Assembly: GCF_004151485.1 (NCBI RefSeq)
Contig: NZ_SBFF01000004.1
Location: 124,001-188,000, forward strand
Length of the DNA stretch: 64,000 bases
Direction of reading: 5' to 3'
Origin: Sphingosinicella sp. CPCC 101087
Lineage (GTDB): Bacteria; Pseudomonadota; Alphaproteobacteria; Sphingomonadales; Sphingomonadaceae
Position numbers and translations under genes: made by a program. Positions 2,890 through 44,185 of the stretch are shown in pieces. The notes below the pieces were generated by a model that searched no databases, was not told the origin of the DNA, and saw only the letters and a list, made by a program, of their open reading frames with translations. Every line of letters starts with the position of its first letter. Within the stretch, counting starts at the first letter, position 1.

Positions 2890-3127
2890 GGCATCGCCTC
2901 CCAGCGTCGGCGAATATGCAAGACACGGGTTACCGAATTACTATCGGGAACCGATTATTTCTGCCGGAATGGATCGATTGCCGACCGGGCCCCGGTCCGG
3001 CCGGCTCGGGGCCTGCTCTTGCCGTCGAAAATCCGGCGCCATTCCCCTCCCGCCCCGGCGTCTGCGATCGGGAGCGCGGGCGCGCCCTGCCGGGAACGGC
3101 AAGGATGGCGGACGCCGGCGCGCCCGC

Positions 3128-9697: not shown

Positions 9698-9772
9698 TAT
9701 CTGGATCAGAGCTACCACCGGCAGCATTGGCCCCGATCTTGTCCGGAAGCGGACCGGCTGCTTCCGGCACGC

Positions 9773-25428: not shown

Positions 25429-25898
25429 AAGGCGATGTCCGGCCGGGCGATCATCAGCCAGAAGATCGCGAGCACGGCGAAGAAAGCCGGAAAGCCGAAG
25501 GCGAACCACAGCCGGTAGAGCCGGTGATATCGTTCGGGCAGAGGCTCCCCCGCCGCCGCCGCCTCCCTCGCCAGATCGCGCATCTTCGCCTGCATCCAAA
25601 CCACCGGCAGCCAGAAAGCCCCGGTGAACAGATAGAGCGCGATCGAGGCGATAATCCAGCCTTCGTCGAGATCGTAGCCGAGCGTGCGGACGAGCAGCAG
25701 CCCGGTGACCGGCTGAGCGACGACGGCGGTCGCGGTGAAGACATAGTCGGCGATGACGACGATCCGTGCGGTCGCCGCGACCGTCGCCGGGTTGCCGGTG
25801 CGGTGCGCCATCAGCATGAAGAAGGCGATACCCGCGCCGGTGCCGAGCAGGACGGTCGAGCCGATCACGTGGAGATATTTGAGGATCAGATAGGTCAT
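25425..25898 (-). CDS. DUF2269 family membrane protein
   Basis: A 157-residue protein with four hydrophobic helices, beginning MTYLILKYLHVIGSTVLLGTG, which matches the DUF2269 family (small integral membrane proteins with a conserved His in the first helix and RTGN and Trp-rich elements). It overlaps the upstream SDR-DoxX gene by ATGA and the downstream gene by GTGA, so all three are translated as a coupled set. Function unknown; heme or quinone association has been suggested for proteins of this shape only by analogy. Confidence 0.85.
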   Translation of the reverse strand: MTYLILKYLHVIGSTVLLGTGAGIAFFMLMAHRTGNPATVAATARIVVIADYVFTATAVVAQPVTGLLLVRTLGYDLDEGWIIASIALYLFTGAFWLPVVWMQAKMRDLAREAAAAGEPLPERYHRLYRLWFAFGFPAFFAVLAIFWLMIARPDIAL

Positions 25899-27401: not shown

Positions 27402-27623
27402 CTACAGCTCGACGCCGCTGGCTATGGCTTCGAGCTTCTTTAGCCGTTCCTTCACGTCAGCCAGTTCGATTCGAACGCCGACGTCGCCCTCGGACTCGTC
27501 CGTCGACCGGGCGAGCTCGAGCCGCTTGACATCGAGCCATCCGCGCCAGGCGCGGTAAGCGGTGAACGAGAGAATGAAGGTGACGCCGAGCGCGGTGGCG
27601 GCGGGGGTGAGGATTTCGACCAT
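27402..27623 (-). CDS. small membrane protein with coiled-coil tail
   Basis: A 73-residue protein: one membrane helix (TALGVTFILSFTAYRAW, about residues 9-25), then a charged helix with heptad-like spacing (RIELADVKERLKKLEAIASG). It starts 9 bases after the stop of the last permease gene and is probably the final gene of the ABC operon. The ATG at 27623 is used; a TTG two codons earlier is possible. It may be an accessory of the permeases or of unrelated function; no family recognised. Confidence 0.6.
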   Translation of the reverse strand: MVEILTPAATALGVTFILSFTAYRAWRGWLDVKRLELARSTDESEGDVGVRIELADVKERLKKLEAIASGVEL

Positions 27624-27632
27624 GTCCAAGAC

Positions 27633-30122
27633 CTATTCGTAGCGAAGGGCGTTGATCGGGTTGGTGCGCGAGACACGCAGCGCGTGGCCCGAAACGGTGC
27701 CGATCGCGATCGCGAGAGCGATCAGGCCGGCGATGAGAAAGGGGCCGGGCCCAAGGTCGATCCGGACGTCGAAGCTGTTGAGCCAGTCGCGCATCACCCA
27801 CCAGGCGGCCGGCCAGGCGACCAGATTGGCGACGATCACCGGCTTCGAGAACTGCCACGCGAGCAGACGGACGATGTCGCGCGAGCGGGCGCCGAATACC
27901 TTTCGGATCCCGATTTCCCGGGTTCGCCGCTCGGCAGTGAAGGCGGCAAGGCCGAACAGGCCGAGGCAGGCGATCACGACCGCGAGCCCCGCAAATCCGG
28001 CGAACGCCTGACCCCGGGCCGCATCGGTGGCGTAAAGCTCGGCGAGTTGATCGTCTGCATATTCCCCTTCGAACGGCACGTCTGCGACAAGCCGCTTCCA
28101 GACCTGAGCGACATTCTGCCGAACGGCCTCCGGGTTCGACGAACGATAGCGTATGGCAAGGCTGCGATAGATTCCGCGGTCGAAGAACAGGCTCGGCTCG
28201 ACCGATTCGCGCAGCGAGCGAAAGCGACTGTTCTCGACGACGCCGACGATCGTTGCCGGAAGCAGGCCGACCTCCTCCGGAAAGACGTTCAGCCTGACCT
28301 GGCGGCCGATCGCCGCCTGCGGGTCTGCATAGCCCATCTGCTCGGCGGCCAGCCGGTTGACGACGATGTTGAGCCCGCGCTGGACAAGCTCCCGCATTGC
28401 CGGCTCTGGATCCTCGCCCGTGCCCCAAGGCAGCCACAGCCGATCGCGGGCCTGATCGAGCGAGAGGGTCCGCCCGGCGAGCAAGGGCACGCGCATCGTC
28501 TGGAAGAAATCCGGATGGACGCTGTAATTGCCCAGGAGGAGCGGCTCGGCGCGGCCGGGCACCAGAGCGTTGGTGTTGGTAACGTTGCCGGTGGCGACGG
28601 TGATGCTGGTGCCGGCGACACCCTCCACACCCTCGATCCGGCCGATCTCGCGCATCAGGGTTTCGGTCTGCGGGATGACCTCGGCCCGATTCATATTGGC
28701 GACCTGGATCAGCCCTTCGCGCTCGAAACCCAGATCCGTGGTCTGGGCGAAGCGGGTCTGGGCGTAGACCACGATGGTGCAGATGATGAGCCCGATCGAC
28801 ACGGCGAACTGGCCGACGACGAGCAGGTTGCGCAGCCGCCCGGTGCCGAGCGGCTCGGCGGTCGACTTGTTCGCCTTGAGCACCGCCGCCGGCTGGAAGC
28901 GGGACAGATAGAAGGCCGGATAGAGGCCGCCGGCGAAACCGACGACGAGGAACAGCCCGGCAACCGGCAGCAGGATTCCGCCGACACCGAGATATTGGAT
29001 TTCGAGGTCGGAATCGAGAAAGGCCGCCAGATAGGGCAGGCCGAGCTCGACCATGGCAAGCGCGATCAGCATGGCGAGACCGGTGATCAGCAGCGACTCG
29101 CCGAGAAACTGGAAGACGAGCTGGCGCCGATTGGCGCCGAGCACCTTGCGCAGCGCCACCTCCCTGGCGCGCTGGCTGGCGCGGGCGGTGGCGAGGTTGA
29201 CGAAGTTGATCGACGCCATCGCCAGGATCAGCAGGGCGACGATGGCGAAGGTGACGATCGTGCGCCGGTCGTTGCCGGGACGGTCGAGCTCGCCCTCGGC
29301 GCCGCTCAGATGGACGTCGCGGACGTTGACCAGGTGCCAGTCGAACAGGTCCCCTTCGCTGACCTGCTGCCCGCCGACAATCACGGGCGGGATGTTGCGC
29401 CGCTCCCAGGCCTGGAGCTGGTCGTTGATCGCTTCGGCGTCGGCGCCCGGCCGCAGCTTCAGATAGACGAATCCGTTGACGCAGCCCCAGCCGCAATCGG
29501 CCTTCTCCTGCTCGCTGATCCGGCCGAGGGCGCGGAACGGCATGTGGCTGTTGCGGGGAATATCCTCGAAGATGCCGGTGACGCGCAGGCTGTACTGCTC
29601 CCCGCCACGCATCGAGGTCACCGTCCGGCCGATGATGTCGAGGCTGCCGAAGCGGTTCATCGCCTCGCTGCGGCTCAGCACCAGCGCGTCCATGCCGGAG
29701 AGCGCCGTCGCCGGATCGCCGCGCAGGAAGGGCAGTTGCAGGATTCGAAAGAAATTCTCGTCGGTCAGGTACATCTCGACGAAAACCGGCTCGCCTTCCT
29801 GGAGGAAGACCGGGTTGAAACCTTCGACGCGGGCGATTTCCTCGATCTGCGGGAAGTCCGCGGCGAGACTCTCGGTGATGACGCCGTGAGTGCCCTGCTG
29901 GGGCACGCGGTTCGGATTGTCCTCCGATACGTTGATCGACTGGACCTGAAAGACCCGCTCGGAGTCGGGCAGCCAGCGATCGTAGCTCGTCTCGTAGCGG
30001 ACGTAGATCAGGATCATCAGGCAGGCGGCGAGGCCGAGCGCCAGGCCGAAGACGTTGATGAAGGCGTAGGTCCGGTTGCGGGTCAGTGCCCGAAATCCGA
30101 CGGTGAGATAATTGCGCCACAT
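27633..30122 (-). CDS. MacB/FtsX-type ABC permease, paralog 5 of 5
   Basis: An 829-residue permease starting MWRNYLTVGFRAL like its four neighbours. It has an N-terminal membrane helix, a periplasmic MacB-like domain (about 50-245), a first FtsX module (about 285-410), a second periplasmic part and a second FtsX module (about 705-815) ending in a motif ISRTNPINALRYE-like. The conserved EIGIRKVFGA segment before the last helices is the likely ATPase coupling helix. The start at 30122 is chosen to match the paralogs; an ATG at 30137 overlaps the previous stop (ATGA). Compared with the other four it has the KVFGA rather than KVLGA variant. Confidence 0.9.
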   Translation of the reverse strand: MWRNYLTVGFRALTRNRTYAFINVFGLALGLAACLMILIYVRYETSYDRWLPDSERVFQVQSINVSEDNPNRVPQQGTHGVITESLAADFPQIEEIARVEGFNPVFLQEGEPVFVEMYLTDENFFRILQLPFLRGDPATALSGMDALVLSRSEAMNRFGSLDIIGRTVTSMRGGEQYSLRVTGIFEDIPRNSHMPFRALGRISEQEKADCGWGCVNGFVYLKLRPGADAEAINDQLQAWERRNIPPVIVGGQQVSEGDLFDWHLVNVRDVHLSGAEGELDRPGNDRRTIVTFAIVALLILAMASINFVNLATARASQRAREVALRKVLGANRRQLVFQFLGESLLITGLAMLIALAMVELGLPYLAAFLDSDLEIQYLGVGGILLPVAGLFLVVGFAGGLYPAFYLSRFQPAAVLKANKSTAEPLGTGRLRNLLVVGQFAVSIGLIICTIVVYAQTRFAQTTDLGFEREGLIQVANMNRAEVIPQTETLMREIGRIEGVEGVAGTSITVATGNVTNTNALVPGRAEPLLLGNYSVHPDFFQTMRVPLLAGRTLSLDQARDRLWLPWGTGEDPEPAMRELVQRGLNIVVNRLAAEQMGYADPQAAIGRQVRLNVFPEEVGLLPATIVGVVENSRFRSLRESVEPSLFFDRGIYRSLAIRYRSSNPEAVRQNVAQVWKRLVADVPFEGEYADDQLAELYATDAARGQAFAGFAGLAVVIACLGLFGLAAFTAERRTREIGIRKVFGARSRDIVRLLAWQFSKPVIVANLVAWPAAWWVMRDWLNSFDVRIDLGPGPFLIAGLIALAIAIGTVSGHALRVSRTNPINALRYE

Positions 30123-30133
30123 CGGCCGTCTCC

Positions 30134-32617
30134 TCATTCGTAGCGCAAGGCGTGGATGGGATTGGTGCGTGCGACGCGGATGGCATGGCCGGCGATCGTG
30201 CCTATCGCGATCCCGAGCGCAAGCAGACCGGCGAGCGCGAAGGGCGTGAGCCCGAGGTCGATGCGCACGTCGAACGTGTTGAGCCAGTCACGCATCACCC
30301 ACCAGGCGACCGGCCAGGCGATCAGGTTCGCGATCACCACCGGCTTGGTGAACTGCCAGACGAGCAGCTTGACGATATCCGCGACGCGCGCGCCGAGGAC
30401 CTTGCGGATGCCGATCTCCTTCGTCCGCCGCGCGGCCGTGAACGCCGCGAGACCGAAGAGGCCGAGGCAGGAGATGATCACGGCGAGAATGGCGAAGCCG
30501 CCGAATACGGCCGCGCGCGTGCGGTCGCGCTGATAAAGCTCGGCGACCAGATCCTCGGCGAAGGCGGCATCGAAGGGAATGTCGGGCAGGAACTCCAGCC
30601 AGGCATTCCGGAGCCCTTCCATTACCTCGCCTGGCCGGTCGGAGCGGTAGCGGACGATCAACTGCGTGATCTCGTCGGGGTCGAAGGTGAAGATGAGCGG
30701 CTCGATCTCGTCGCGCGCGCTGCGGACGCGCGTATCCTCGACCACGCCGACGATCGTGCAAGGCACCATCTCCGCTCCGTCGACGCTCGTGCGCACCTGC
30801 TGCCCGAGCGCGGCCGAAGGGTCGCGAAATCCGAACATCTGTGCGGCGCGGCGGTTGACGATGATGTTCAGCCCGCGCGCGGAGAGATTTCCGATCGGCG
30901 TGCCCTCCGGAGAGCGGATGAGACGATCATTGGCGAAGCGCTCCCCGAGCATCCGGCCAGCGAGCAGGCGCATTCCCATCGCCGAGAAGAAGTCGGGATC
31001 GGCACGATAGACGCCGACATTGAGACCCTGGATCCCGCCCGGAGCGCTGACCGCCTGGATCGACTTGTTGATCGCGGCGATGCCGAGGTTGGTCCTGCCG
31101 ACAGCGACGATTCCGGGGACGGATTCCAGCCGCCGCTTCGCCGCCTCGTAGCTGCCCGTTTCCTGCAGCCGCCAGGCACCGCCGACCTGGATCAGCCCGT
31201 CCCGCTCGTATCCGGGATCGACGGTGGTGACGAAGCGGGTCTGCGAATAGACGACCCAGGTGCAGATGATCAGGCCGATCGAAATGGCGAACTGCGCGAC
31301 CACCAGCAGGTTGCGCAGCCGGCCGGTACCGTGCGGCTCGGCCGAGGACTTGTTCGCCCGCAGCACATGAGCGGGCTGAAAGCGAGCAAGGAAGAAAGCG
31401 GGGTAGAGGCCGCCAAGCGCGCCCACCAGCGCGATCAGGACGACGGCCATGAGGCCGATGCCCCCGCCGCCGAAGTAGCGAAGCTGGAAGTCGGCATCGA
31501 GATAGTTGCCGAGCATCGGTGCGAACAGCTCGATCAGCGTCAGCGCGATCAGCATCGACAGCGTCGCGAGCAGAACCGACTCGCCGAGGAACTGGAGGAC
31601 CAGCTGCTTCCGGCTCGCCCCGAGCACCTTTCGCAGCGCGACCTCTCGGGCGCGCTGGCCGGCGCGCGCGGTCGACAGATTGATGAAGTTGATGCAGGCC
31701 ATGGCGAGGATCAGTGCCGCGACGATGGCGAAAGTCGCGACGGTGCGGTGGTCGTTGCCGGGAGTCATCGACAGCTGCTGCGCCTCGCCGAGGTGGACGC
31801 CGCGCACCGGAACCAGTTCCAGGTCCATGATGTCGGCCTGCGAGGCGGTGCGGCCGTCGATGACCTGCGGCGGGATGACCCTCTTTTCCCAGTCGGGAAG
31901 CGCCGCATTGATGGCTTCGGCCTCCGCTTCGGGCCGCAGCTTCACGTAGTGATACTGGCCCATGGCGCCCCAGCTCCGAAAGATTTCGGGCCTGCCCGCA
32001 TATAGAGCGGGATCGAAGCGCAGCAGGGCATCGAAGGCCATGTGGCTGTTGTTCGGCATGTCGGCGACGACACCCGTCACGATATAGTCGCGTCTCTCAG
32101 CGCCGCCGCTCGTGGTGATCGTCTGTCCGATGACGTCGATCGAGCCGAACTGCCGAATCGCCTCGGTTTCGGTCAGAACGATCGAAGTCACGTTCGGAAG
32201 GGCCTGCCCGGCCGAGCCGCGCAGGAAGCGGAGCTGGAATATGTCGAAGAAGGCCGGATCGACGCGAAGCCCCTCGACGGTGATCGGCCGACCCTGGTGA
32301 AGCACGGCCGGACGACTCGGAACGGCGATGGTGATGGCTTCGATCTGCGGAAAGCCGCCGACCAGCGTGTCGTGCACCGGCATCGGGCTGGACTGCGTAG
32401 CCGAGACCGGCTGCCCCGGCTCGTGCCAGGTCGCCTGCACCTGATAGATTCGCTCACTGTCCGGGAGCCAGGCGTCGTAGCTCGTTTCGTAGCGGACATA
32501 GAGGATGAGCAGCAGGCTCGCGGCGAGCCCGATCGCGAGGCCGAATATGTTGATGAAAGCGTAGGTCCGGCTCCTGACGAGCGAGCGGAAACCGACGGTC
32601 AGATAGTTGCGCCACAT
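30134..32617 (-). CDS. MacB/FtsX-type ABC permease, paralog 4 of 5
   Basis: An 827-residue inner-membrane permease with two FtsX modules and two extracytoplasmic MacB-like domains, the layout of proteins that use ATP for work in the periplasm or outer envelope. N-terminus MWRNYLTVGFRSLVRSRTYA and C-terminus NPIHALRYE are shared with the neighbours, while the periplasmic parts differ most (for example LVPVRGVHLGEAQQLSM here). A GGGAGG ribosome binding site precedes the ATG. Its stop overlaps an upstream ATG of the next permease. Confidence 0.92.
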   Translation of the reverse strand: MWRNYLTVGFRSLVRSRTYAFINIFGLAIGLAASLLLILYVRYETSYDAWLPDSERIYQVQATWHEPGQPVSATQSSPMPVHDTLVGGFPQIEAITIAVPSRPAVLHQGRPITVEGLRVDPAFFDIFQLRFLRGSAGQALPNVTSIVLTETEAIRQFGSIDVIGQTITTSGGAERRDYIVTGVVADMPNNSHMAFDALLRFDPALYAGRPEIFRSWGAMGQYHYVKLRPEAEAEAINAALPDWEKRVIPPQVIDGRTASQADIMDLELVPVRGVHLGEAQQLSMTPGNDHRTVATFAIVAALILAMACINFINLSTARAGQRAREVALRKVLGASRKQLVLQFLGESVLLATLSMLIALTLIELFAPMLGNYLDADFQLRYFGGGGIGLMAVVLIALVGALGGLYPAFFLARFQPAHVLRANKSSAEPHGTGRLRNLLVVAQFAISIGLIICTWVVYSQTRFVTTVDPGYERDGLIQVGGAWRLQETGSYEAAKRRLESVPGIVAVGRTNLGIAAINKSIQAVSAPGGIQGLNVGVYRADPDFFSAMGMRLLAGRMLGERFANDRLIRSPEGTPIGNLSARGLNIIVNRRAAQMFGFRDPSAALGQQVRTSVDGAEMVPCTIVGVVEDTRVRSARDEIEPLIFTFDPDEITQLIVRYRSDRPGEVMEGLRNAWLEFLPDIPFDAAFAEDLVAELYQRDRTRAAVFGGFAILAVIISCLGLFGLAAFTAARRTKEIGIRKVLGARVADIVKLLVWQFTKPVVIANLIAWPVAWWVMRDWLNTFDVRIDLGLTPFALAGLLALGIAIGTIAGHAIRVARTNPIHALRYE

Positions 32618-32633
32618 GCCGGCCTCCCTCCCC

Positions 32634-35132
32634 TCACTCGTATCTCAGCGCCTGGATCGGGTTGGCGCGCGCAACTTTGAAGGCGTGGCCGGCGATGGTC
32701 CCGATGGCGATCGCCAGAGCCAGGAGCCCGGCGAGCACGAACGGCGCCGGGCCGAGGTCGATGCGCGCGTCGAAATTGTTCAGCCAGTCGCGCATCACCC
32801 ACCAGGCGACGGGCCAGGCGATCAGGTTGGCGACGATGATCGGCTTGGAAAATTGCCAGGCGAGCAGCTGGACGATGTCGCGGGTGCGGGCGCCGAGCAC
32901 CTTCCTGATGCCGATTTCCTTGGTCCGCCGCTCGGCGGTGAAGGCAGCGAGGCCGAACAGGCCGAGGCAGGCCACGATGATCGCGAGGATTGCGAAGGCG
33001 GCGAACGCCTGCGCCCTGGCATCCTCGGCATCGTACAATTCCCCGATGATCGAGTCGCTATATTCGGCCTCGAACGGCACCTCGGTCGTGACGCCCTTCC
33101 AGACCCGCTCGATGGCGGCACGGACCTCGGCGGGATTGCCGTCGAACCGAGCGATGACGTGGGTGTGGCCGCTGTTCACGTTCTGGAACATGATCGGATC
33201 CATCGGCAGCTTGACCGAGCGGAAGCGCGCATCGCGCACGACGCCGATCACCGTGGCGGGAACGAGCCCGAATTCGCTTTGCACCAAACCGGCGCGGATG
33301 GTGCGGCCGACCGCATCGGCGGGGTTGCGGAACCCCAGCCGCCGCGCCGCCAGCTCGTTGATGACGATATTGCCGCCCCGGGCCGCGAGCGCGCGCTGCG
33401 CCGCGCCGTCGGGCGGATAAGGTACTGTCATATCGTCCATCGGCCGCTGCGGATCGAACCAGCGGCCGGCGACGAGCTGCATGCCCATCGCCTCGAGGAA
33501 GGCCTCGTCGACCTGATAAATGCCGATAAGGACCGGATCGGGGCGGCCGGGGATCATGACGTTCGTGTTGCTGTTATTGTCGGTCGCGACGCCGATATTC
33601 GTGCGGCCGGCGGTGACGACGCCCGGGACGCGCTTGATCCGATCGACCAGCATCTCGCCCTTTTCGAGCAGCTGGTAACGGCTGAGACCATCGATCTGGA
33701 GAATGTTGCTGCGGTCGTATCCCGGATCGACGGTGCGAGCGAAGACGGTCTGGCCGTAGATGACGGCGGTGCAGATGATGAGCGCGATCGAAACGGCGAA
33801 CTGGGCGACGACCAGGATGCTGCGCAGACGCCCCGATCCTGGCGTCTCCGACGAGGATTTGTTCGCCTTGAGCACCGTCGCAGGCTCGAACCTGGAGATG
33901 AAGAAGGCCGGGTAGAGACCTCCCAGGACGCCGACCACGACCACCAGCCCCAGGACCGGCAGCATGATCCCCCCGGCGCCAAAATAGCGCACGTCGAGAT
34001 TGGCGCCGAGAAAGGCGGTGAATGACGGCATCAGCAGCTCGATCAAAGCGAGCGCGATGAGCATCGCGCCGACGGCGACGATGATCGATTCGCCCACGAA
34101 CTGCACGATCAACTGCCTTCGAGTGGCGCCGAGCGCCTTGCGCAAGGCGACCTCGCGCGCCCGCTGGCTGGCACGCGCAGTGGCGAGATTGGTGAAGTTC
34201 ACCACCGCCATGCCCAGGATCAGCAGAGCTACGATCGAGAAGGTGATGATGGTGGTGCGGTCGTTCCCCGGCGCCATCGCCGCAGCCTGGGCCTCGCCCA
34301 GATGGACGTCGGTCAGGTTGACGATGTGCCAATCCTGGTCGTCGCCGGCGTTGTAGCGCGCCTCGCCCGTATTGTCGTCGGGAATGACCCGGTCCTCCCA
34401 GGCCTGGAGGCTCGAGCGGATCGCCTGAACGTCCGCACCCGGCCGCAGCTTCACATAGACCCAGCCGTTCTGGCAGCCCCAGCATTGGAGCGCCTGGGGA
34501 AAGTCGGCATTGTAGGCGATCAGATCGATCCGGATCAGACTGTTGATCCTGAGGTGCGAGTTGGTCGGCAGGTCGCGAAGCACGCCGGTGATCCGGAAGT
34601 CCCTCGTGACGCCGCGCGTGATGAGGGTCATCGTCTCGCCGACCACCCGATCGGTGCCGAACCGCCGCCGGGCCTCAGACTGGGTGATCACCGCGGAATT
34701 GGCCTGCGACAGCGCATTGTGGTCGCCATGCACCAGCGGCAGCGGCACGACGTCGAGGAAGTTGCCGTCGACCCAAAGGTAATCCTCGGTGGAGGTCGCC
34801 TCGCCGTTCCGGAAGAAGACCGGCTCGTTGTCGGTGACGTAGACCTCCTGCTCGATCTGCGGGAAATTGTCCTTGAGCGACTTGCCCGCAGTGTAAGGCG
34901 TCATCTGGAGCTTGGCTTCGTTCCCGGTATCGCGGGCCTTGTACCAGCTCTGCACCTGGTAGATGCGATCCGCCTCGGGGATCCAGCGATCGTAGCTGAG
35001 CTCGTAGCGGACGTAGAGCAGGATCATCAGGCAGGCGGCCATGCCGATCGCGAGGCCGAAGATGTTGATGAAGGCGTAGGTCCGGCTCTTGGCGAGCGCG
35101 CGGACGCCGACCGTCAGATAGTTGCGCCACAT
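32634..35132 (-). CDS. MacB/FtsX-type ABC permease, paralog 3 of 5
   Basis: An 832-residue paralog. Membrane helices sit at about residues 18-40, three near 280-400, one near 425 and three at 705-815. The conserved segment GNDRTTIITFSIVALLILGM begins the first FtsX module; TKEIGIRKVLGARTRDIVQL begins the second. The extracytoplasmic domain contains a CWGCQNGW stretch with two cysteines that aligns with CGWGCVNGF in paralog 5 but is absent from the others, so the pair may form a disulfide. The ribosome binding site (GAGGGGAGG) is strong. Only 16 bases separate it from the next permease. Confidence 0.92.
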   Translation of the reverse strand: MWRNYLTVGVRALAKSRTYAFINIFGLAIGMAACLMILLYVRYELSYDRWIPEADRIYQVQSWYKARDTGNEAKLQMTPYTAGKSLKDNFPQIEQEVYVTDNEPVFFRNGEATSTEDYLWVDGNFLDVVPLPLVHGDHNALSQANSAVITQSEARRRFGTDRVVGETMTLITRGVTRDFRITGVLRDLPTNSHLRINSLIRIDLIAYNADFPQALQCWGCQNGWVYVKLRPGADVQAIRSSLQAWEDRVIPDDNTGEARYNAGDDQDWHIVNLTDVHLGEAQAAAMAPGNDRTTIITFSIVALLILGMAVVNFTNLATARASQRAREVALRKALGATRRQLIVQFVGESIIVAVGAMLIALALIELLMPSFTAFLGANLDVRYFGAGGIMLPVLGLVVVVGVLGGLYPAFFISRFEPATVLKANKSSSETPGSGRLRSILVVAQFAVSIALIICTAVIYGQTVFARTVDPGYDRSNILQIDGLSRYQLLEKGEMLVDRIKRVPGVVTAGRTNIGVATDNNSNTNVMIPGRPDPVLIGIYQVDEAFLEAMGMQLVAGRWFDPQRPMDDMTVPYPPDGAAQRALAARGGNIVINELAARRLGFRNPADAVGRTIRAGLVQSEFGLVPATVIGVVRDARFRSVKLPMDPIMFQNVNSGHTHVIARFDGNPAEVRAAIERVWKGVTTEVPFEAEYSDSIIGELYDAEDARAQAFAAFAILAIIVACLGLFGLAAFTAERRTKEIGIRKVLGARTRDIVQLLAWQFSKPIIVANLIAWPVAWWVMRDWLNNFDARIDLGPAPFVLAGLLALAIAIGTIAGHAFKVARANPIQALRYE

Positions 35133-35166
35133 GGAACGCCTCCCCTCCTTCGCTGTCCCGCCACGC

Positions 35167-37674
35167 TCATTCGTATCTCAGCGCATGGATAGGGTTGGCG
35201 CGCGCCACCCGGACAGCGTGGCCGGCAATGGTGCCGAGCGCGATCGCCAGCGCCAGCAGGCCGGCCAGCAGGAACGGCGCCGGCCCCAGGTCTATCCGGG
35301 CTTCAAACGTGTTGAGCCAGTCGCGCATGGCCCACCAGGCGACCGGCCAGGCGATCAGGTTGGCGAGGATGATCGGCTTGGAGAATTGCCACGCCAGCAG
35401 CCGGACGATGTCTCCAGTGCGCGCGCCAAGCACCTTGCGAATGCCGATCTCCTTGGTCCGTCGCTCGGCGGTGAAGGCAGCGAGGCCGAACAGGCCGAGG
35501 CAGGCCACGATGATCGCGAGCAGCGCGAACCCGGCGAAGACCTGCGCGCGCGCCGCCTCGGGACCGTACAGCCTGGCGAGTATCTCTTCGGTGAAATATG
35601 CCTCGAACGGTACGTCGGGGACGACCCGGCGCCAGACTTCACCGATATGCTCGCGCACCGCGCCGGGATCGGCGGAATCGTAGCGCACCGCCAGATAGCC
35701 GGCATAATCGCTTCCGAGCCGGTACATGATGGGCTCGACCGGCAGGCGGATGGAGCGCCAGCGCGTGTCCCTGACGACGCCGACGATGGTGACCGGCGTC
35801 AGGCCGATCTCCGGGTTGAACGGCGACAAGGAGACCCGCACCTGCTTGCCGACCGCGTCCTCGGGCGTGCGGAAGCCCAGCTGCCGCGCCGCCAGCGCGT
35901 TCACGATCACGTTGCCGCCGCGCCGCGCCAAGGCGCGCTCCGCCTCGGCGTCGCCGTCGACCGGAACGTGCAGCCGGTCCATCGGACGGTCCGGGTCGAA
36001 CAGGCGGCCCGCGAGCCGGTCGATGCCCATCGTGGCGAAGAAATGCTCGTCCACCGCATAATTGCCGAGATTCACCGGTTCATCGCGGCCGGGCAGATAG
36101 ACGGCGCGGCCCATCGTATTGTGCGTGTCGACGCCGATGCTCGTTCGCGAAACAGAGACGACGCCGTCGATCCGGCCGATCTCGCGCGCCAGCGTTTCGG
36201 CGACCGGCTGGAGCTGTCGGCGATTGAGATTGTCGATCTGGAGGATGCCTTCGCGACGGAAGCCGGGATCGGCGGTGCGGGCGTGTACCGTCTGGGCGTA
36301 GACGATCGCCGTGCAGATGATGAGGCCGATCGACACGGCGAACTGGGCGACGACCAAGGCGCTGCGCAGCCGGCCGGTGCCGGCGGCCTCGGCGGCGGAT
36401 TTGTTGGCCTTGAGCACCTCGGCCGGCTGAAAGCGGGAAAGCTGAAATGCCGGATACAGACCTCCGACCGCGCCCACCAGCAACACGAGGAGGACGATCG
36501 GCAGGACAAGGCCGTCTGCGCCGAAATAGGTCATTTCGAGGTCGGCCTCGAGAAAGCCCGACAGGAACGGAAGCAGCAGTTCGGCCGCAGCCAGTGCGAT
36601 CAGCATCGCGATCGTCGTCAGCAGCAGGGATTCACCGAGAAACTGGGCGATCAGCTGGCGGCGATTAGCACCAAGCACCTTGCGCAACGCCACTTCTCGG
36701 GCGCGCTGACTGGCGCGGGCGGTGGCGAGGTTGGTGAAGTTCACACAGGCCATGAACAGGATCAGGAAGGCGACAACGGTGAAGGTGACGATGGTGCGCT
36801 CGTCATTGCCGGGGGCGAAGCCGCCGAGCTGCGCCTCGCCGAGATGCACGTCGCGGACGTTGACCAAGCGCCAATCCTGGGCCTTGCCGCGGTCGATCGT
36901 GCCCCGGCCGAAATCTTCGGGCGGGATGTTGCGTCGCTCCCATTGGGGCATTGCGGCGTGGATCCGCTCGACATCCGTCCCGGGGCGCAGGCGCAGGTAG
37001 TTCCAGCCCGATATCTGTCCCCAGCTGGTGAGAAATTCGGGGAAGGTGGCAAAGGTGGTGGCCGGATCGATCCGGTAGATCATGCTGAGGCGCATGTGGG
37101 AATTGGGCGGCAGATCGCGGATCACGCCGGTGACGCGATGATCGACATGCTCGCGCTGCACGAGCGTCAGCGTTCTGCCGATCGGGTCCTCGTCGCCGAA
37201 CAGCCGCTGCGCCACCGTTTCCGTCAGGACGACGTTGCCGGGCCGGGCCAGAGCCGTGGCCGGGTCGCCGCGGACGAAGGGCAGGGGCAGCACGTCGAAC
37301 ACCGGTCCGGCGGCGGCGGCGGCGTTCTCGATGGATATCGCCTCTCCGTCCTTCAGCGCGATGGCGAAGGTCCCGTACATGAAGAGCCGGCGCTCGACCT
37401 CGGGGAAATCCTGCTCCAGCGCCGTGCCGGCCGCATATTGGGACATCTGCATGCGATAGACCTCGCCGGTCTCGTCGTCGGTGCTGATGTTCTGGAGCTG
37501 GTAGAGATTCTCGGCGTTGGGCAGCCATTCGTCGTAGCTGCGCTCGTAGCGCACGTAGAGCAGCAGCATCAGGCAGGCGGCGAGGCCCACGGCGAGGCCG
37601 AAGATGTTGATGAAGGCGTAGGTCCGGCTCCGCAGCAGCGATCTCAAGCCGACGGTCAGATAATTGCGCCACAT
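35167..37674 (-). CDS. MacB/FtsX-type ABC permease, paralog 2 of 5
   Basis: An 835-residue paralog with the same N-terminus (MWRNYLTVGLRSLLRSRTYA), twin FtsX modules and C-terminal VARANPIHALRYE. Differences concentrate in the two extracytoplasmic regions (about residues 50-245 and 450-690). It lies 34 bases upstream of paralog 3, with GAAGGGAG before its own start. It carries no ATPase domain and must depend on the ATPase encoded at 40367-41047, unless another supplies energy. Confidence 0.92.
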   Translation of the reverse strand: MWRNYLTVGLRSLLRSRTYAFINIFGLAVGLAACLMLLLYVRYERSYDEWLPNAENLYQLQNISTDDETGEVYRMQMSQYAAGTALEQDFPEVERRLFMYGTFAIALKDGEAISIENAAAAAGPVFDVLPLPFVRGDPATALARPGNVVLTETVAQRLFGDEDPIGRTLTLVQREHVDHRVTGVIRDLPPNSHMRLSMIYRIDPATTFATFPEFLTSWGQISGWNYLRLRPGTDVERIHAAMPQWERRNIPPEDFGRGTIDRGKAQDWRLVNVRDVHLGEAQLGGFAPGNDERTIVTFTVVAFLILFMACVNFTNLATARASQRAREVALRKVLGANRRQLIAQFLGESLLLTTIAMLIALAAAELLLPFLSGFLEADLEMTYFGADGLVLPIVLLVLLVGAVGGLYPAFQLSRFQPAEVLKANKSAAEAAGTGRLRSALVVAQFAVSIGLIICTAIVYAQTVHARTADPGFRREGILQIDNLNRRQLQPVAETLAREIGRIDGVVSVSRTSIGVDTHNTMGRAVYLPGRDEPVNLGNYAVDEHFFATMGIDRLAGRLFDPDRPMDRLHVPVDGDAEAERALARRGGNVIVNALAARQLGFRTPEDAVGKQVRVSLSPFNPEIGLTPVTIVGVVRDTRWRSIRLPVEPIMYRLGSDYAGYLAVRYDSADPGAVREHIGEVWRRVVPDVPFEAYFTEEILARLYGPEAARAQVFAGFALLAIIVACLGLFGLAAFTAERRTKEIGIRKVLGARTGDIVRLLAWQFSKPIILANLIAWPVAWWAMRDWLNTFEARIDLGPAPFLLAGLLALAIALGTIAGHAVRVARANPIHALRYE

Positions 37675-37717
37675 CGTCGGCGGCTCCCTTCCGTGGTCCA
37701 GCGCGAGCCTGCGCCCC

Positions 37718-40222
37718 TCATTCGTACCGGAGGGCGATGATCGGGTTCGATCGTGCCACCCGGAAGGCGTGCCCCGAGATCGTGCCGATCGCGATCGCCA
37801 AGGCGAGCAGGCCGGCCAGCACGAATGGTGCCGGACCCAGGTCGATGCGCGCGTCGAACGTGTTCAGCCACTCGCGCATCGCCCACCAGGCGGCCGGCCA
37901 GGCGATCAGATTGGCGACGATCACCGGCTTGGAGAATTGCCAGGCGAGCAGCCGGACGATGTCTCGGGTGCGCGCGCCGAGCACCTTCCTGATCCCGATC
38001 TCCTTGGTCCGGCGTTCGGCGGTGAAGGCGGCCAGGCCGAACAGGCCGAGGCAAGCGACGATCACCGCCAGAGCGGCGAAGCCGGCAAAAACCTGGGCGC
38101 GGGCCTGCTCCGCTTCGTAGAGCTCGGCGACTCGCTCCTCGCTGAATTCTCCGTCGAACGGGACGTCCGGGGCGAGACGCTTCCATGCCTGCTCGACGCG
38201 GTTGCGAACGGCCTGCGGTTCCGAAGTGTCGTAGCGCAGCAGCAGGTTGTTGGCGAAGGTCCGGTCGAAACGGAACATGATCGGCTCGATCGGCGTGCGG
38301 ATCGACCGGAATCGGCTGTTGCGGACGACGCCGATGATCCGGGTCGGCACCAGTCCGTCCTCCGGATCGAAGAAGGTGACCATCACCGTCTTGCCGACGG
38401 CGTCGGCCGGATCCTGCCAGCCCATACGTTGTGCCGCGAGCTCGTTGATGACGACGTTGATGCCGCGCGCGACCAATGGTCGCTCCATCTCATCGGTAGA
38501 CGGGAAGGGCAGCGTCGAATCGTCGGCGGGGCGGCCTTCCTCGAACAGGCGGCCGGCGACGCGCTCGATCCCGAGCGTTTCGAAAAAGCCGAGATCGATC
38601 GAATAGCTGCCTATGCCGATCGGCTCGGCCTGGCCCGGCACCTGCACGCCGGTCGTGCTCGTGCTGCCGGTGGCGACGCCGATGCCCGATCGGCCGACCG
38701 AGACGATTCCGGGAATGCGCTCCATCTCGTCGACGATCGTCTCGGACCGTTCCATCAGCTCACGACGGCCGAAATTGCCGATCTGGATAACCCCGTCGCG
38801 GCGGAATCCCGGGTCGGCGGTCCGGGCGAAGACGGTCTGAGCGTAGACCACGGCCGTGCAGATGATGAGGCCGATCGACACGGCGAACTGCGCGACGACG
38901 AGTATGTTGCGCAGGCGGCCGGAGCCGGCGGCCTCGGCGGTCGACTTGTTCGCCTTGAGCACCTGGGCCGGCTGGAAACGCGACAGATAGAAAGCGGGGT
39001 AGACGCCGCCCGCGGCGCCGACGACGAGGGTCAGTGCCAGGATCGGCAGCAGCATCCCGTCCATGCCGAAATAGGTCATGGCGAGATCGGCATCGAGAAA
39101 GGCGGACATAGCGGGCAGCAACAGCTCGACCATCGCCAAAGCGATGACCATCGAGATGGCGGCGATCAGCACCGATTCCAGCAGGAATTGGGTGACGAGC
39201 TGCTGGCGGTTGGCGCCGAGCACCTTCCTCAAGGCCACCTCGCGGGCGCGCTGACTGGCCCGGGCCGTCGCGAGGTTCGTGAAGTTCACGCAGGCCATGC
39301 CCAGGATCAGAAAGGCGATGACGGCAAAGGTAACGATTGTCTGCCGATCGTTGCCGGGCGTCATCGACGCCCGCTGCGCGTCGCCGAGATGAACGTCGCG
39401 GATATTGGCGACCTTCCAGTCCTGCTCTTCGCCTGCGTTGAAGGTCTCGGTCCCGAACTGCTGGTCGGGGATGTTGCGCCGCTCCCAGGCGGGGAGTTGC
39501 GCCTCGATCGCCGCGGGATCGCTGCCCGGACGCAAGCTGAAATAGTACCAGCCCGACTGCCAACCCCAGCTGGTCAGAAAATCCGGCGTGTCGGTGAAAT
39601 AGCTCGCGGGATCGAATCGCGCGATCAGACTGAAACGCATGTGGCTGTTGCGCGGCACGTCGCGCGCGATGCCGGTCACGCGAAAGTCCGTGGGGACGCC
39701 GCGAGCCACCAAGGTGACGGTCTTGCCCATCGGATTCTCGTCGCCGAATATCCGACGCCCTTCGGTTTCGGTGAGCACGATCGATCCGACCTGCGAAAGC
39801 GCGGTGCGCGGATCGCCCTGGACGAGCGGAAAGCGCAGCACGTCGAAAAAGCGATTGTCGACCAGCAAGGCGTCCTCGGTCGGCAGCGCCTCGCCGCCGC
39901 GCATGATCACCGGACTGCTGGACAGCACGTAGACGCTGCTTTCGACCTGCGGAAAATCCTGCCGCAGGCGCTGGCCTGCGACATAGGAAGTCATCTGCAG
40001 CCGGTCATCCTGGCCGGTCTGGCGCGAGCGGAAATGGCTCTGAAACTGGTAGGTGTTCTCGGCATTGGGAAGCCACTCGTCGTAGGTGGTCTCGTAACGG
40101 ACGTAGAGGAGCAGCATGAGGCAGGCGGCAAGGCCGATGGCCAAACCGACGATGTTGATGAAGGCATAGGTGCGATTCTTGGCCAGGGCACGGATGCCGA
40201 CGGTGAGATAGTTGCGCCACAT
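37718..40222 (-). CDS. MacB/FtsX-type ABC permease, paralog 1 of 5
   Basis: An 834-residue paralog and the first permease after the ATPase gene. Its MWRNYLTVGIRALAKNRTYA start is chosen to match the paralogs and has GCGGAGCAG 6-12 bases upstream; the frame stays open for 38 codons further upstream but that extension has no family resemblance. Layout: N-terminal helix, MacB-like periplasmic domain, FtsX module, periplasmic domain, FtsX module. A 144-base spacer with a strong hairpin separates it from the ATPase gene, so its expression relative to the ATPase may be reduced. Confidence 0.92.
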   Translation of the reverse strand: MWRNYLTVGIRALAKNRTYAFINIVGLAIGLAACLMLLLYVRYETTYDEWLPNAENTYQFQSHFRSRQTGQDDRLQMTSYVAGQRLRQDFPQVESSVYVLSSSPVIMRGGEALPTEDALLVDNRFFDVLRFPLVQGDPRTALSQVGSIVLTETEGRRIFGDENPMGKTVTLVARGVPTDFRVTGIARDVPRNSHMRFSLIARFDPASYFTDTPDFLTSWGWQSGWYYFSLRPGSDPAAIEAQLPAWERRNIPDQQFGTETFNAGEEQDWKVANIRDVHLGDAQRASMTPGNDRQTIVTFAVIAFLILGMACVNFTNLATARASQRAREVALRKVLGANRQQLVTQFLLESVLIAAISMVIALAMVELLLPAMSAFLDADLAMTYFGMDGMLLPILALTLVVGAAGGVYPAFYLSRFQPAQVLKANKSTAEAAGSGRLRNILVVAQFAVSIGLIICTAVVYAQTVFARTADPGFRRDGVIQIGNFGRRELMERSETIVDEMERIPGIVSVGRSGIGVATGSTSTTGVQVPGQAEPIGIGSYSIDLGFFETLGIERVAGRLFEEGRPADDSTLPFPSTDEMERPLVARGINVVINELAAQRMGWQDPADAVGKTVMVTFFDPEDGLVPTRIIGVVRNSRFRSIRTPIEPIMFRFDRTFANNLLLRYDTSEPQAVRNRVEQAWKRLAPDVPFDGEFSEERVAELYEAEQARAQVFAGFAALAVIVACLGLFGLAAFTAERRTKEIGIRKVLGARTRDIVRLLAWQFSKPVIVANLIAWPAAWWAMREWLNTFDARIDLGPAPFVLAGLLALAIAIGTISGHAFRVARSNPIIALRYE

Positions 40223-40325
40223 AGTCTTCTGCTCCGCATTTGCCTCGCCGCTTCGGCAGAGGCACGAGCCGCCGGGGCGGCGAAGGGAAAGGGGCGCTCG
40301 TCCGGCTTGGGGACGTGGGCGACCG

Positions 40326-40355
40326 CCTCTCCCCACCTCCCCCTTTCGGGAGAGG
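40326..40355. repeat. palindromic repeat between ATPase and permease genes
   Basis: CCTCTCCC-N14-GGGAGAGG forms an 8-base-pair stem inside the ABC operon. Similar C-rich/G-rich palindromes occur at 44346-44371, 54083-54150 (inside thiC) and 61271-61298. It could reduce read-through into the permeases or protect the upstream mRNA end. Confidence 0.55.
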
Positions 40356-40366
40356 GGATTCGATCG

Positions 40367-41047
40367 TCAGGCCGCGCGCCGGTGCTCGATCAGGATTCGG
40401 CCGTCGAGCATGTTGACGACGCGGCCGGCATAATCGGCGTGGCTCGGCGAGTGGGTCACCATGACGATGGTGGATCCTTCGGCATTGAGCGCCTGCAGCA
40501 TCTTCATCACTTCCTCGCCATGGGCCGTGTCGAGATTGCCGGTCGGCTCGTCGGCGAGGATCAGCTTGGGGTTGGCGACGAGTGCCCGGGCGACGGCGAC
40601 ACGCTGCTGCTGGCCGCCCGACAGCTGACTCGGGCGGTGCTTGGCGCGATGGGCGATACCCACCTTGTCCATCACCTCGTCGACCCGGGCGCGCCGCTCT
40701 GCCGCGGGGACATTGTGGTAGAGCAGCGCAAGCTCGATATTCTCGCGGACGCTAAGCTCGTCGACGAGATTGAAGCTCTGAAAGATGAACCCGATGTTCC
40801 GCTTCCGGAAGTCGGCGAGCTTCGATTCAGACAGGCCCGCCACCTCGGTGCCGTTGAAGACGTAGGACCCGCTCGTCGGGCTGTCGAGCATCCCGATCAC
40901 ATTGAGCAGGGTCGACTTGCCGCAGCCCGAAGGACCCATCACCGCGACGAACTCGCCGTCGGCCACGTCGAGGAAAATCCCGTCGAGGGCGGTCGTTTCG
41001 ACCATGTCGGTGCGGTAGACCCGCGACAGTTCACGCATGCTCAGCAT
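40367..41047 (-). CDS. MacB/LolD-type ABC transporter ATPase
   Basis: A 226-residue nucleotide-binding subunit. The Walker A loop GPSGCGKST is at residues 38-46, the Q-loop in [14 protein letters not shown], the ABC signature LSGGQQQR near residue 141, Walker [13 protein letters not shown] near 161-172 and the switch histidine in [10 protein letters not shown]. The DEPTGNLD form is typical of the LolD/MacB/FtsE group that pairs with FtsX-fold permeases. It is the only ATPase in the operon, placed between the membrane-fusion protein and five permeases, so it presumably serves all of them. Confidence 0.94.
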
Positions 41048-41071
41048 CGGTCTTTCCCTTCTTGCCCACTC

Positions 41072-42379
41072 TCATTGTCCACTAAGGTCGAGCCGGTCGC
41101 GTTCGGCGAAACCGGTATAAGGCGAGGTGATGACGCGCTCGCCCGGGTCGAGGCCTTCGAGCACCTCGATATGATCGGCGTTGCGGCGGCCGAGGCGGAC
41201 CTGGCGCTTGACCGCGCTGCCCCCGTCGGGCGCCACGACGAACACCCAGTTGCCGCCAGTTTCGTTGTAGAAGGCGCCGTTCGGGATCAGCAGAGCCGGC
41301 GCCGGATCGCCCAGCGTCAGGCGGATCTGCACGGTCTGTCCGCGTTGAAGGTCGGCCGGCTCCTGGCCGATGAAATTGAGGTCGATCTCGAATGCGCCGT
41401 TGCGCACCTGCGGGTAGATCTTCCCGACCCGCATCCGATAGGGCCGGCCCGCGACCTCGGCGGTGGCCACCTGACCCTCGGCCACGCGGCCGAGATAGAA
41501 TTCGTCGACCTGGGCGCGCAGCTTGTTGCGCCCGGCGCTGTCGATCTGGCCGAGGCGCTCGCCCCGGTTGAACGACTGGCCCACCTGTATCGAGAAAGCG
41601 GTAAGCTGCCCGGCGACCGGCGCGCGCAGGTTCAGTGCGTCCAGGCTGGCGCGAGCCAGGTCGAGGCTCTGGTTGAGCGCGTTGGTCGAGGCGCGAAGCT
41701 GGGCAAGCTGGCTGGACTGCAGCCGCTCGTCGGTCGACTGCGTGCGGCGCAGCACGGCTAGGCGATCGCGTGCGGCCTCATAGGCGTCGCGGCTGTCCGC
41801 GAACTGACGCGCCGGAACATAGCCACGCTCGGCCAGCGGCCGCTGCATCTCATATTGGCGCTGGGCGGTCTGGACGGCGAGCTCGGCCTCGATAACCGCG
41901 CGCTCGTTTGCGAGCCGGTTCTGCGAGAGAGCCAGTTCCTGGCTGCGCATCGAGTTGATCTGCTGCGTCACCTCGGTCTGGCGCGCGAGAACATTGAGTT
42001 GAAGGTCCGAGTTGGAAAGGACGGCGAGCAACTGGCCCGCCTGGACCATCGCACCGTCCTCGACCATCACCTGCTCGACGCGGCCGCCCTCGACGGCATC
42101 GAGGAAAACGGTCACGAGGGGCTCGACCCGAGCGCGCAGCGGCAGGAAATCATCGAATCGGCCGCGCTCGACCGTCGAGATGGTCAGCCGCGAAGTTTCG
42201 ACAGTCTGGCTGTTGGCGCTGGGCGCGAACCAGTAGAAGAGGAAGGCGGCCAGAAGGACGCCTGCTGCGGCAATGCCGATCTTGACCCGGTTGGACAGGC
42301 CGCCTCGCGCGACGACGCGGTCCATGCCGCCGCCGCTCTCGGGCCGTCCTTCAGGCTTCTCAATCCGCACTACGCTCAT
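41072..42379 (-). CDS. HlyD/MacA-type membrane-fusion protein
   Basis: A 435-residue periplasmic adaptor anchored by one N-terminal helix (KIGIAAAGVLLAAFLFYWF, about residues 32-50). A first lipoyl half (LRARVEPLVTVFLDAVEGGRVEQVMVEDG), a long coiled-coil hairpin (about 120-230, rich in Gln/Arg/Leu), the second lipoyl half (LRAPVAGQLTAFSIQVGQSF) and a beta-barrel/membrane-proximal end can be followed. It should link the inner-membrane ABC complex to an outer-membrane partner, none of which is encoded nearby. It is the first long gene of the minus-strand operon, 24 bases before the ATPase. Confidence 0.92.
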   Translation of the reverse strand: MSVVRIEKPEGRPESGGGMDRVVARGGLSNRVKIGIAAAGVLLAAFLFYWFAPSANSQTVETSRLTISTVERGRFDDFLPLRARVEPLVTVFLDAVEGGRVEQVMVEDGAMVQAGQLLAVLSNSDLQLNVLARQTEVTQQINSMRSQELALSQNRLANERAVIEAELAVQTAQRQYEMQRPLAERGYVPARQFADSRDAYEAARDRLAVLRRTQSTDERLQSSQLAQLRASTNALNQSLDLARASLDALNLRAPVAGQLTAFSIQVGQSFNRGERLGQIDSAGRNKLRAQVDEFYLGRVAEGQVATAEVAGRPYRMRVGKIYPQVRNGAFEIDLNFIGQEPADLQRGQTVQIRLTLGDPAPALLIPNGAFYNETGGNWVFVVAPDGGSAVKRQVRLGRRNADHIEVLEGLDPGERVITSPYTGFAERDRLDLSGQ

Positions 42380-42420: not shown

Positions 42421-42436
42421 TGTCCGAATCCGGACA
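42421..42436. promoter_or_regulatory. 16-bp palindrome, candidate response-regulator site 1
   Basis: TGTCCG-AATC-CGGACA has perfect arms, extended by one pair on each side. It lies between the small peptide gene and the membrane-fusion gene, downstream of the minus-strand sigma-54 promoter. Confidence 0.65.
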
Positions 42437-42441
42437 GAAGC

Positions 42442-42457
42442 TGTCCGCCGCCGCACA
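42442..42457. promoter_or_regulatory. candidate response-regulator site 2
   Basis: TGTCCG-CCGC-CGCACA matches the same palindrome with one mismatch. Its start is 21 bp, two helix turns, from site 1, so dimers would bind on one DNA face. Confidence 0.55.
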
Positions 42458-42479: not shown

Positions 42480-42572
42480 TCACGCTGCAAGCGGCAGCGC
42501 CACGAACGTGAGGAGGCCGGTCATGAGAAAGCCGACCGTGAAAGCCAGCGCTTCGAATCTTGCCATGTTCAT
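42480..42572 (-). CDS. 30-residue membrane peptide
   Basis: ATG at 42572, preceded by AGGGAG at a 2-base offset from ideal spacing, opens 30 codons ending in TGA at 42482-42480. The product begins [19 protein letters not shown] and is a single hydrophobic helix ending in ALPLAA; cleavage as a tiny signal-peptide-like product is also possible. It starts about 26 bases after the predicted sigma-54 start point and is the first reading frame of the ABC operon transcript. No homolog recognised; it may be a small regulator of the transporter or sensor kinase, or a leader peptide. Confidence 0.5.
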
Positions 42573-42607
42573 GCTCCCTGAAGCGGTTTGCCCCTGCACC
42601 GGAAGTT

Positions 42608-42625
42608 CAGCAGGAGCCGTGCCAA
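42608..42625 (-). promoter_or_regulatory. sigma-54 promoter for the ABC operon
   Basis: On the minus strand TTGGCACGGCTCCTGCTG matches the -24/-12 consensus: TGGCACG with GG, exactly ten bases, then GC. It points toward the small peptide, membrane-fusion, ATPase and permease genes. The two palindromes at 42692-42727 lie about 95-130 bases upstream of the predicted start, a usual distance for enhancer sites of NtrC-type activators. Confidence 0.7.
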
Positions 42626-42691
42626 ATGAAAAAAGCGGCGGATTTCCGCCATTTTCCGACGGCGGCCGTCACCTCGAGCCACGGCCGGGAC

Positions 42692-42707
42692 TGTCCGCTT
42701 CCGAACA
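42692..42707. promoter_or_regulatory. candidate response-regulator site 3
   Basis: TGTCCG-CTTC-CGAACA, one mismatch to the palindrome of site 1. It lies between the two divergent sigma-54 promoters. Confidence 0.55.
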
Positions 42708-42711
42708 GGAA

Positions 42712-42727
42712 TGTCCGAGGCCGGACG
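42712..42727. promoter_or_regulatory. candidate response-regulator site 4
   Basis: TGTCCG-AGGC-CGGACG, one mismatch, with its start 20 bp from that of site 3. It abuts the -24 element of the plus-strand promoter, so it could also limit expression of the regulator gene. Confidence 0.55.
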
Positions 42728-42731
42728 ACAC

Positions 42732-42747
42732 TGGCACGCTTATTGAT
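42732..42747 (+). promoter_or_regulatory. sigma-54-like promoter for the response regulator
   Basis: TGGCACGCTTATTGAT has the -24 GG and a ten-base spacer but GA instead of GC at -12, so the match is weaker than on the other strand. It lies about 32 bases before the GTG start of the regulator and suggests autoregulation. Confidence 0.5.
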
Positions 42748-42778
42748 TGGAGCTTATCGATCAGCTTGGGAGGGCTCA

Positions 42779-44185
<1,407 letters not shown>

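Follow-up and report, generated by a model that had tools for sequence, protein, structure and literature searches.

A Sphingosinicella locus with five paralogous permeases, one ATPase and one adaptor: a probable MacB-type exporter with exchangeable permeases

In a 64-kb stretch of the genome of Sphingosinicella sp. CPCC 101087 (the window) we analysed a minus-strand array in which the gene for a HlyD/MacA-like periplasmic adaptor is followed, in transcription order, by those for an ABC ATPase, five permeases (P1, P2, P3, P4 and P5, numbered in that order) and a small membrane protein (Table 1). The locus probably encodes a tripartite ABC exporter of the MacB type (type VII) with exchangeable permeases, controlled by stress and induced together with a TolC channel. 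MacB-type exporters are usually discussed as having one permease per pump. Coordinates and open reading frames (ORFs) bore out a preliminary description of this DNA, which had reported five permeases of 827–835 residues in a row, with shared termini, accompanied by one ATPase, one adaptor and a small protein. The N-terminus MWRNYLTVG and the C-terminus NPIxALRYE are common to all five; the starts of P1 and P5 were set at the conserved MWRNY (40222 and 30122), the mechanical ORF list giving longer ones. Neighbouring permease genes are 11–43 nt apart and 144 nt separate the ATPase gene from P1. The array holds a single ATPase gene. Of the 54 candidate ATPases scored against its product in the whole genome, two reached E ≤ 1e-70: this ATPase itself and another from a distinct locus with a single permease. 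Since orthologous arrays are present in related genomes, the five-permease array is real and far beyond chance.

Pairwise identity among the five permeases was 51–64% over about 830 residues. The AlphaFold model of P1 (mean pLDDT 81.6) contained eight long membrane-type helices, and each permease is predicted to be an eight-helix fused pseudo-dimer. Alignment of the five along their length, as the preliminary description had proposed, demonstrated that the periplasmic domains are less conserved than the membrane parts. Identity among the five was highest in the two coupling loops (0.88 and 0.90) and lowest in the two periplasmic domains (0.42 and 0.43); the N-terminus together with the first helix reached 0.81 and the remaining membrane helices 0.57–0.81. 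In MacB-type transporters it is the coupling loops that face the ATPase, and because these near-invariant putative contacts are conserved in all five proteins, in both halves, the pattern fits one ATPase serving all five. The proposal that one core is combined with alternative permeases gains from this difference between coupling loops and periplasmic domains and from the old, separately maintained permease lineages described below. A second proposal, that two different permeases pair in one complex, we consider most improbable. LolC/LolE offer a precedent for heteromeric pairing and the tight tandem arrangement of the genes would suit it, but pairing is unnecessary because each permease is already a fused eight-helix protein that contains both FtsX halves and an intact pair of coupling loops; moreover, single-permease loci occur in five genomes of the genus. 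Gene conversion homogenising the membrane parts was also considered and set aside, the within-genome similarity excess being slight (0.0079, standard error (s.e.) 0.0032, 57 non-independent pairs; 0.0024, s.e. 0.0028, in the periplasmic parts). The longest identical stretch among the copies was 59 nt, between P2 and P3.

The history of the permeases was followed in a sample of 26 genomes of the genus, absence being defined as no match at E ≤ 1e-200. Five permeases were present in three genomes (G000, which is the genome of the window, G009 and G015, the last with one copy broken), four in five genomes, three in three, two in three and one in five. The array was damaged or cut by contig ends in four (G004, G012, G024 and G022), and a permease match at this threshold was absent from three (G008, G019 and G023). 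In G022 (locus L028, C9:76000-93000) the array is broken into fragments and retains a single intact permease; decay and sequence error are indistinguishable there because the assembly is only 68% complete. A tree was built of 90 permeases, 63 of them full-length copies from the genus. These 63 formed one clade (SH-aLRT 99), and 53 of them fell into seven groups, each with at least three species. Only one pair of sister copies came from the same genome (G024); both G011 copies belong to group C. The order of the permeases is shuffled, reading A-B-C-D-E in the window, A-D-C-E in G005 and E-D-B-F in G014. A clade of the window's five against the 58 others was rejected by the approximately unbiased (AU) test (p-AU 3.84e-05), and dN/dS was 0.08–0.25 in eight close orthologue pairs and 0.36 in the more distant pair of P2 and its G010 orthologue. 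The tree groups, the AU rejection and the low dN/dS indicate that the permease set is old, that the tested copies are under purifying selection and that species keep different subsets. Recent amplification of the five copies, as a candidate explanation, is ruled out by the tree and the AU test.

These results bear on two points of the preliminary description. Recent neutral amplification had been suggested should the periplasmic domains be as conserved as the membrane parts and copy number vary freely between close strains; copy number does vary, from none to five, but by old lineages and not by recent amplification. A search for the same five-gene array in other sphingomonads had been proposed; arrays were found in the genus, with five permeases in three genomes, and in other families. 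It is unlikely, in our view, that the five represent redundant dosage, doing the same job and diverging by drift without specialisation. Such redundancy would agree with the variable copy number and with periplasmic domains that evolve faster in orthologues as well. Against it, copies in old groups are kept across species, the window's five do not form one clade, and close orthologues have the low dN/dS given above. In addition, 14 alignment columns were largely fixed within groups and differed between them, 12 of them periplasmic, as compared with 0 in 50 label shuffles, and multi-permease arrays occur in other families too.

Divergently from the array lie the genes for a response regulator and a histidine kinase. 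Control of the NtrC type through sigma-54 is indicated by the receiver, sigma-54 AAA+ and Fis-type HTH domains of the regulator and by the presence of rpoN in the genome. In the sigma-54 contact loop, for which GAFTGA is the usual form, 20 of 21 genus regulators have GAFTDA, and that of L006 gave no match to the pattern; GAFTGA was found in four loci from other families. A literature search with the operator letters and regulator terms found no description of this regulator. Within the window the sigma-54 consensus was matched at 12 or more of 13 positions by only two sites (mean 0.2 in 10 shuffles), one per strand and both in the gap between the regulator and adaptor genes. The same gap holds four of the six dyads that match TGTCCG-N4-CGGACA with at most one mismatch, arranged as two tandem pairs with spacings of 20 and 21 nt; the remaining two are at 9740 and 61244. 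Sigma-54-like sites on both strands were detected in 14 of the 22 fetched genus loci. Of 21 fetched genus loci, 20 contain such dyads, 63 altogether, and every one of these is no more than 400 nt from a sigma-54-like site; the remaining locus, L010, ends before the regulator–adaptor gap. Just two of the 63 are outside the gap, both in L002, where a tandem pair (2885 and 2904) is accompanied by a sigma-54-like site at 3036. This pair stands just upstream of a PspC match (G002:C12:127269, equal to L002:3270) near the end of the G002 array, a direct hint that the array's regulator may act on a Psp-type gene in G002 as well (L002:2885-3430). In other systems or lineages the dyad was present in 18 of 29 loci and in none of the other 11.

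The dyads also connect the array with a second locus. The whole own genome contains five exact dyads, whereas the reversed control gave one. The array accounts for one of the five, two stand in tandem at C3:1032 and 1052, and single dyads lie at C40:234517 and C34:112162. The tandem pair on C3 adjoins a sigma-54-like site directed at a pcm gene (PCMT), downstream of which is the start of tolC, with 49 residues to the contig end that are 71% identical to TolC of G005. The pcm upstream region of G023 is cut off; among the other 25 genus genomes, dyads with at most one mismatch were found upstream of pcm in 19 and a sigma-54-like site (at least 11 of 13) in 20. The gene downstream of pcm was OEP/TolC in all three cases scanned, and 24 of the 26 pcm loci have a long ORF after pcm. 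Dyads were present in 19, and the sigma-54-like site in 20, of the 23 genomes that hold the array, while both were absent in the two array-less genomes with sequence; the comparison of 20/23 with 0/2 gives about 0.03 one-sided and is small, post hoc and made without regard to kinship. The operators predicted at both the array and pcm-tolC support the view that their products would form one tripartite exporter with exchangeable permeases. As for the two other exact dyads, C40:234517 (L030:8518) belongs to a separate locus (G000:C40:226000-240000), where one permease and an ATPase are accompanied by regulator and kinase matches and a search with the array's adaptor gave no match. C34:112162 (L127, about 4663) lies some 300 bases upstream of the gene for EipA (envelope integrity protein A) and may be a chance match, because the reversed control also gives one in the genome.

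The histidine kinase has no evident periplasmic domain. Its two helices were visible in 18 of 21 genus loci, the window included, and were missed in L003, L009 and L013, where the simple scan or the choice of start failed. Kinases almost without an extracytoplasmic part are a feature of Bce-type peptide-antibiotic modules, and some of the permeases may therefore be mainly ligand sensors for the two-helix kinase and not exporters, an alternative that we hold to be possible but on the improbable side. The dedicated adaptor and the operators shared with tolC point to export instead, and the kinase could sense cytoplasmic signals through a PAS-like region (PAS_8, just below the cut-off at 21.2 of 21.8 bits).

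The small protein at the end of the array is hydrophobic in a single N-terminal stretch, and its C-terminal tail is charged and conserved. Neither Pfam (E ≤ 10) nor NCBIfam (E ≤ 0.1) gave a match to it, and for want of one its assignment as a known Psp protein (PspB, PspC or PspD) was rejected. Homologues were detected in all 26 genus genomes. Fourteen of them are linked to the array and scored above 100 bits, with a search model built from such copies. All 46 non-array homologues are located within 3 kb of a pspC match, as is one of the 14 array-linked copies (G002), and this association hints at envelope stress. In the own genome the non-array homologues lie in two loci, L120 (G000:C12:68000-76500) and L121 (G000:C41:240000-248500), each of which holds pspA and pspC matches; here the homologue is possibly a further Psp component. 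Both loci have a sigma-54-like site upstream of pspA (C12:70103 and C41:240687). A different role, in which the system transports or extracts a self-made envelope molecule (a lipid, lipoprotein or peptide) and does not act in defence, appears doubtful though conceivable. The closest curated names for the adaptor and ATPase come from darobactin export and LolCDE is among the fold matches, in line with such a role. On the other side, no peptide biosynthetic genes were recognised among the scanned neighbours, and a role in stress agrees better with the sigma-54 control, which looks inducible, and with the linkage of the small protein to pspC.

Several observations weigh against a stress-controlled exporter with exchangeable permeases. 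Of the 23 genomes with the array, only 14 have the small protein linked to it. Three of the 23 (G002, G016 and G020) have neither dyads nor a sigma-54-like site at pcm-tolC, and G011 has the sigma-54-like site only. Single sigma-54-like sites are non-specific genome-wide (with one mismatch allowed, 17 sites matched and the reversed control gave 28), so that those at the psp loci are suggestive only. Finally, the preliminary description had suggested that permeases differing in their extracytoplasmic domains may give the system several substrates. These domains do vary most, but the ratio of periplasmic to membrane log-distance was nearly the same in orthologues (2.36, 228 pairs) as in same-genome copies (2.78, 75 pairs); fast periplasmic divergence is therefore no proof of different substrates, and taken alone it argues only weakly for them.

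We nevertheless prefer the exporter with exchangeable permeases, and envisage that it would work as follows. Two copies of the ATPase would bind both coupling loops of one permease, the transporter slot being open to any of the five, all of which are predicted fused pseudo-dimers carrying two periplasmic domains apiece. Driven by ATP, the membrane helices would move and transmit their movement to the periplasmic domains, which would push a periplasmic substrate into the shared adaptor, and the substrate would leave by the TolC channel encoded elsewhere in the genome. The direction of transport would thus be export, and each permease may handle a different class of ligand. The kinase, with almost no periplasmic part, and the sigma-54 regulator, presumably by binding the predicted operators, would switch on the array and pcm-tolC at the same time as their own genes. 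The system likely serves to relieve envelope stress, caused for example by antimicrobial peptides. A more elaborate form of this scheme is put forward with little confidence. The locus would then be a combinatorial envelope-defence pump whose swappable clade-specific permeases compete for one ATPase, adaptor and co-induced TolC and also sense ligands for the intramembrane kinase; the Psp-linked small protein would couple the pump to membrane damage, and its spectrum would be tuned in each species as permease cassettes are gained, lost or put in a new order.

Table 1. Array and control-region features, with positions in the window
Feature	Position	Strand	Basis
Small membrane protein, 73 aa	27402..27623	-	N-terminal hydrophobic stretch, alignment, distribution
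Permease P5, 829 aa, orthologous group E	27633..30122	-	two MacB_PCD + two FtsX
Permease P4, 827 aa, orthologous group D	30134..32617	-	two MacB_PCD + two FtsX
Permease P3, 832 aa, orthologous group C	32634..35132	-	two MacB_PCD + two FtsX
Permease P2, 835 aa, orthologous group B	35167..37674	-	two MacB_PCD + two FtsX
Permease P1, 834 aa, orthologous group A	37718..40222	-	two MacB_PCD + two FtsX
ABC ATPase, 226 aa, MacB/LolD/DarD type	40367..41047	-	Pfam ABC_tran
HlyD/MacA-like periplasmic adaptor, 435 aa	41072..42379	-	Pfam HlyD_3, HlyD_D23, Biotin_lipoyl_2
Tandem predicted operator dyads, 42421 (exact) and 42442 (one mismatch), between array promoter and adaptor	42421..42457	.	
Sigma-54-like promoter TTGGCACGGCTCCTGCT, 12 of 13, toward adaptor	42609..42625	-	
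Tandem predicted operator dyads, 42692 and 42712, one mismatch each to TGTCCG-N4-CGGACA, between both promoters	42692..42727	.	
Sigma-54-like promoter CTGGCACGCTTATTGAT, 12 of 13, toward regulator	42731..42747	+	
NtrC-type sigma-54 response regulator, divergent from array	GTG 42779..44185	+	Response_reg, Sigma54_activat, HTH_8 (ORF 42560-44185)
Histidine kinase, 446 aa	44376..45716	+	HATPase_c; two N-terminal hydrophobic helices with short loop between (hydropathy)

Two further genes of the window were noted. The array is followed by a gene (25895-27208) that fuses an NAD-binding domain to a DoxX-like one and adjoins the array in several relatives, and a single ORF at 18962-21340 combines glycosyltransferase and UDP-galactopyranose mutase domains.

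The multi-permease layout is common to other phyla. Arrays of five or six permeases were found in other families of the order (G025, G030 and G034), with copies outside the genus clade. In a wider survey, the best 80 of 580 relatives gave 79 loci, which were cut at about 22 kb, so that permease runs are minimum lengths; three of the loci, L044, L055 and L092, come from contigs already included as G007, G025 and G023. At least two adjacent full-length permeases were present in 42 of these 79 loci and at least three in 33. Adaptor and ATPase were both found in 34, of which 17 had two or more permeases, and 12 of the 17 also had the regulator. Examples with adaptor and ATPase are Kordiimonas gwangyangensis (five permeases), a Kordiimonadaceae metagenome-assembled genome (MAG; six), a Zixibacteria MAG (seven) and a Bacteroidetes MAG (eight). 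Single-permease loci of the same layout occur in Sphingomonas and Sphingobium (L041, L042, L043 and L045), and L047 has it without a kinase match. Many of the surveyed loci, mostly from Bacteroidota and candidate phyla, have permease runs and no recognised adaptor within the fetched stretch.

A literature search, with subscription papers mostly outside its coverage, found no description of such an array among the titles and abstract openings listed; the passages available from PMC8277102, PMC5985334, PMC11237479 and PMC9239133 do not describe it. A layout that recurs in several phyla and places as many as eight adjacent permeases beside one motor and adaptor is a natural system for asking which part sets substrate choice and whether permeases can replace one another on a common core. 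The tandem TGTCCG-N4-CGGACA element, as a predicted operator, defines a candidate regulon for the regulator.

Membership of the MacB/type VII family was supported by whole-protein FtsX and MacB_PCD scores above the cut-offs for P1–P5 and by concordant fold matches. The permeases passed no NCBIfam cut-off, and the ATPase passed none among the 25 of 188 families listed. The array resembles MacAB-TolC in its type VII fold and periplasmic adaptor, and here an outer-membrane channel gene carries the same operators. MacB fuses the ATPase to a four-helix permease and forms a homodimer, whereas the ATPase of the array is a separate protein of 226 residues, the permease is modelled as an eight-helix fusion, and the MacB equivalog scores of the permeases were 25.7–37.1 of 966 bits. 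The duplicated ADOP permeases (TIGR03434) have the same architecture as P1–P5 and were the best NCBIfam match for all five, at 295.2–330.3 bits versus a cut-off of 622.3; their name denotes orphan permeases, whereas here ATPase and adaptor are present. YbbAP was the best whole-length PDB fold match to the permeases, but at 13–14% identity, and we know of no adaptor for it. Bce-type modules share the FtsX-type permease and the kinase almost without an extracytoplasmic part, and the array differs from them in its sigma-54 regulator, adaptor, operators at tolC and several permeases. DarBCD (NF038008, NF038010 and NF038007) likewise has a separate adaptor and ATPase and a permease of about 780 residues. 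DarC was the best curated match of the adaptor by score (191 of 450 bits), although the adaptor passed only the broad RND_mfp subfamily (140.1 against a cut-off of 94.9); DarD was the best NCBIfam match of the ATPase (277.6 of 375 bits), and DarB scored 39.9–101.9 of 700 bits. Unlike DarBCD, to which all scores were below the cut-offs, the array has five permeases and not one, adjacent sigma-54 two-component genes and no recognised peptide biosynthesis genes beside it. Its parts belong to known families, and the array is best filed as a system of the MacAB/DarBCD-TolC kind with multiple permeases.
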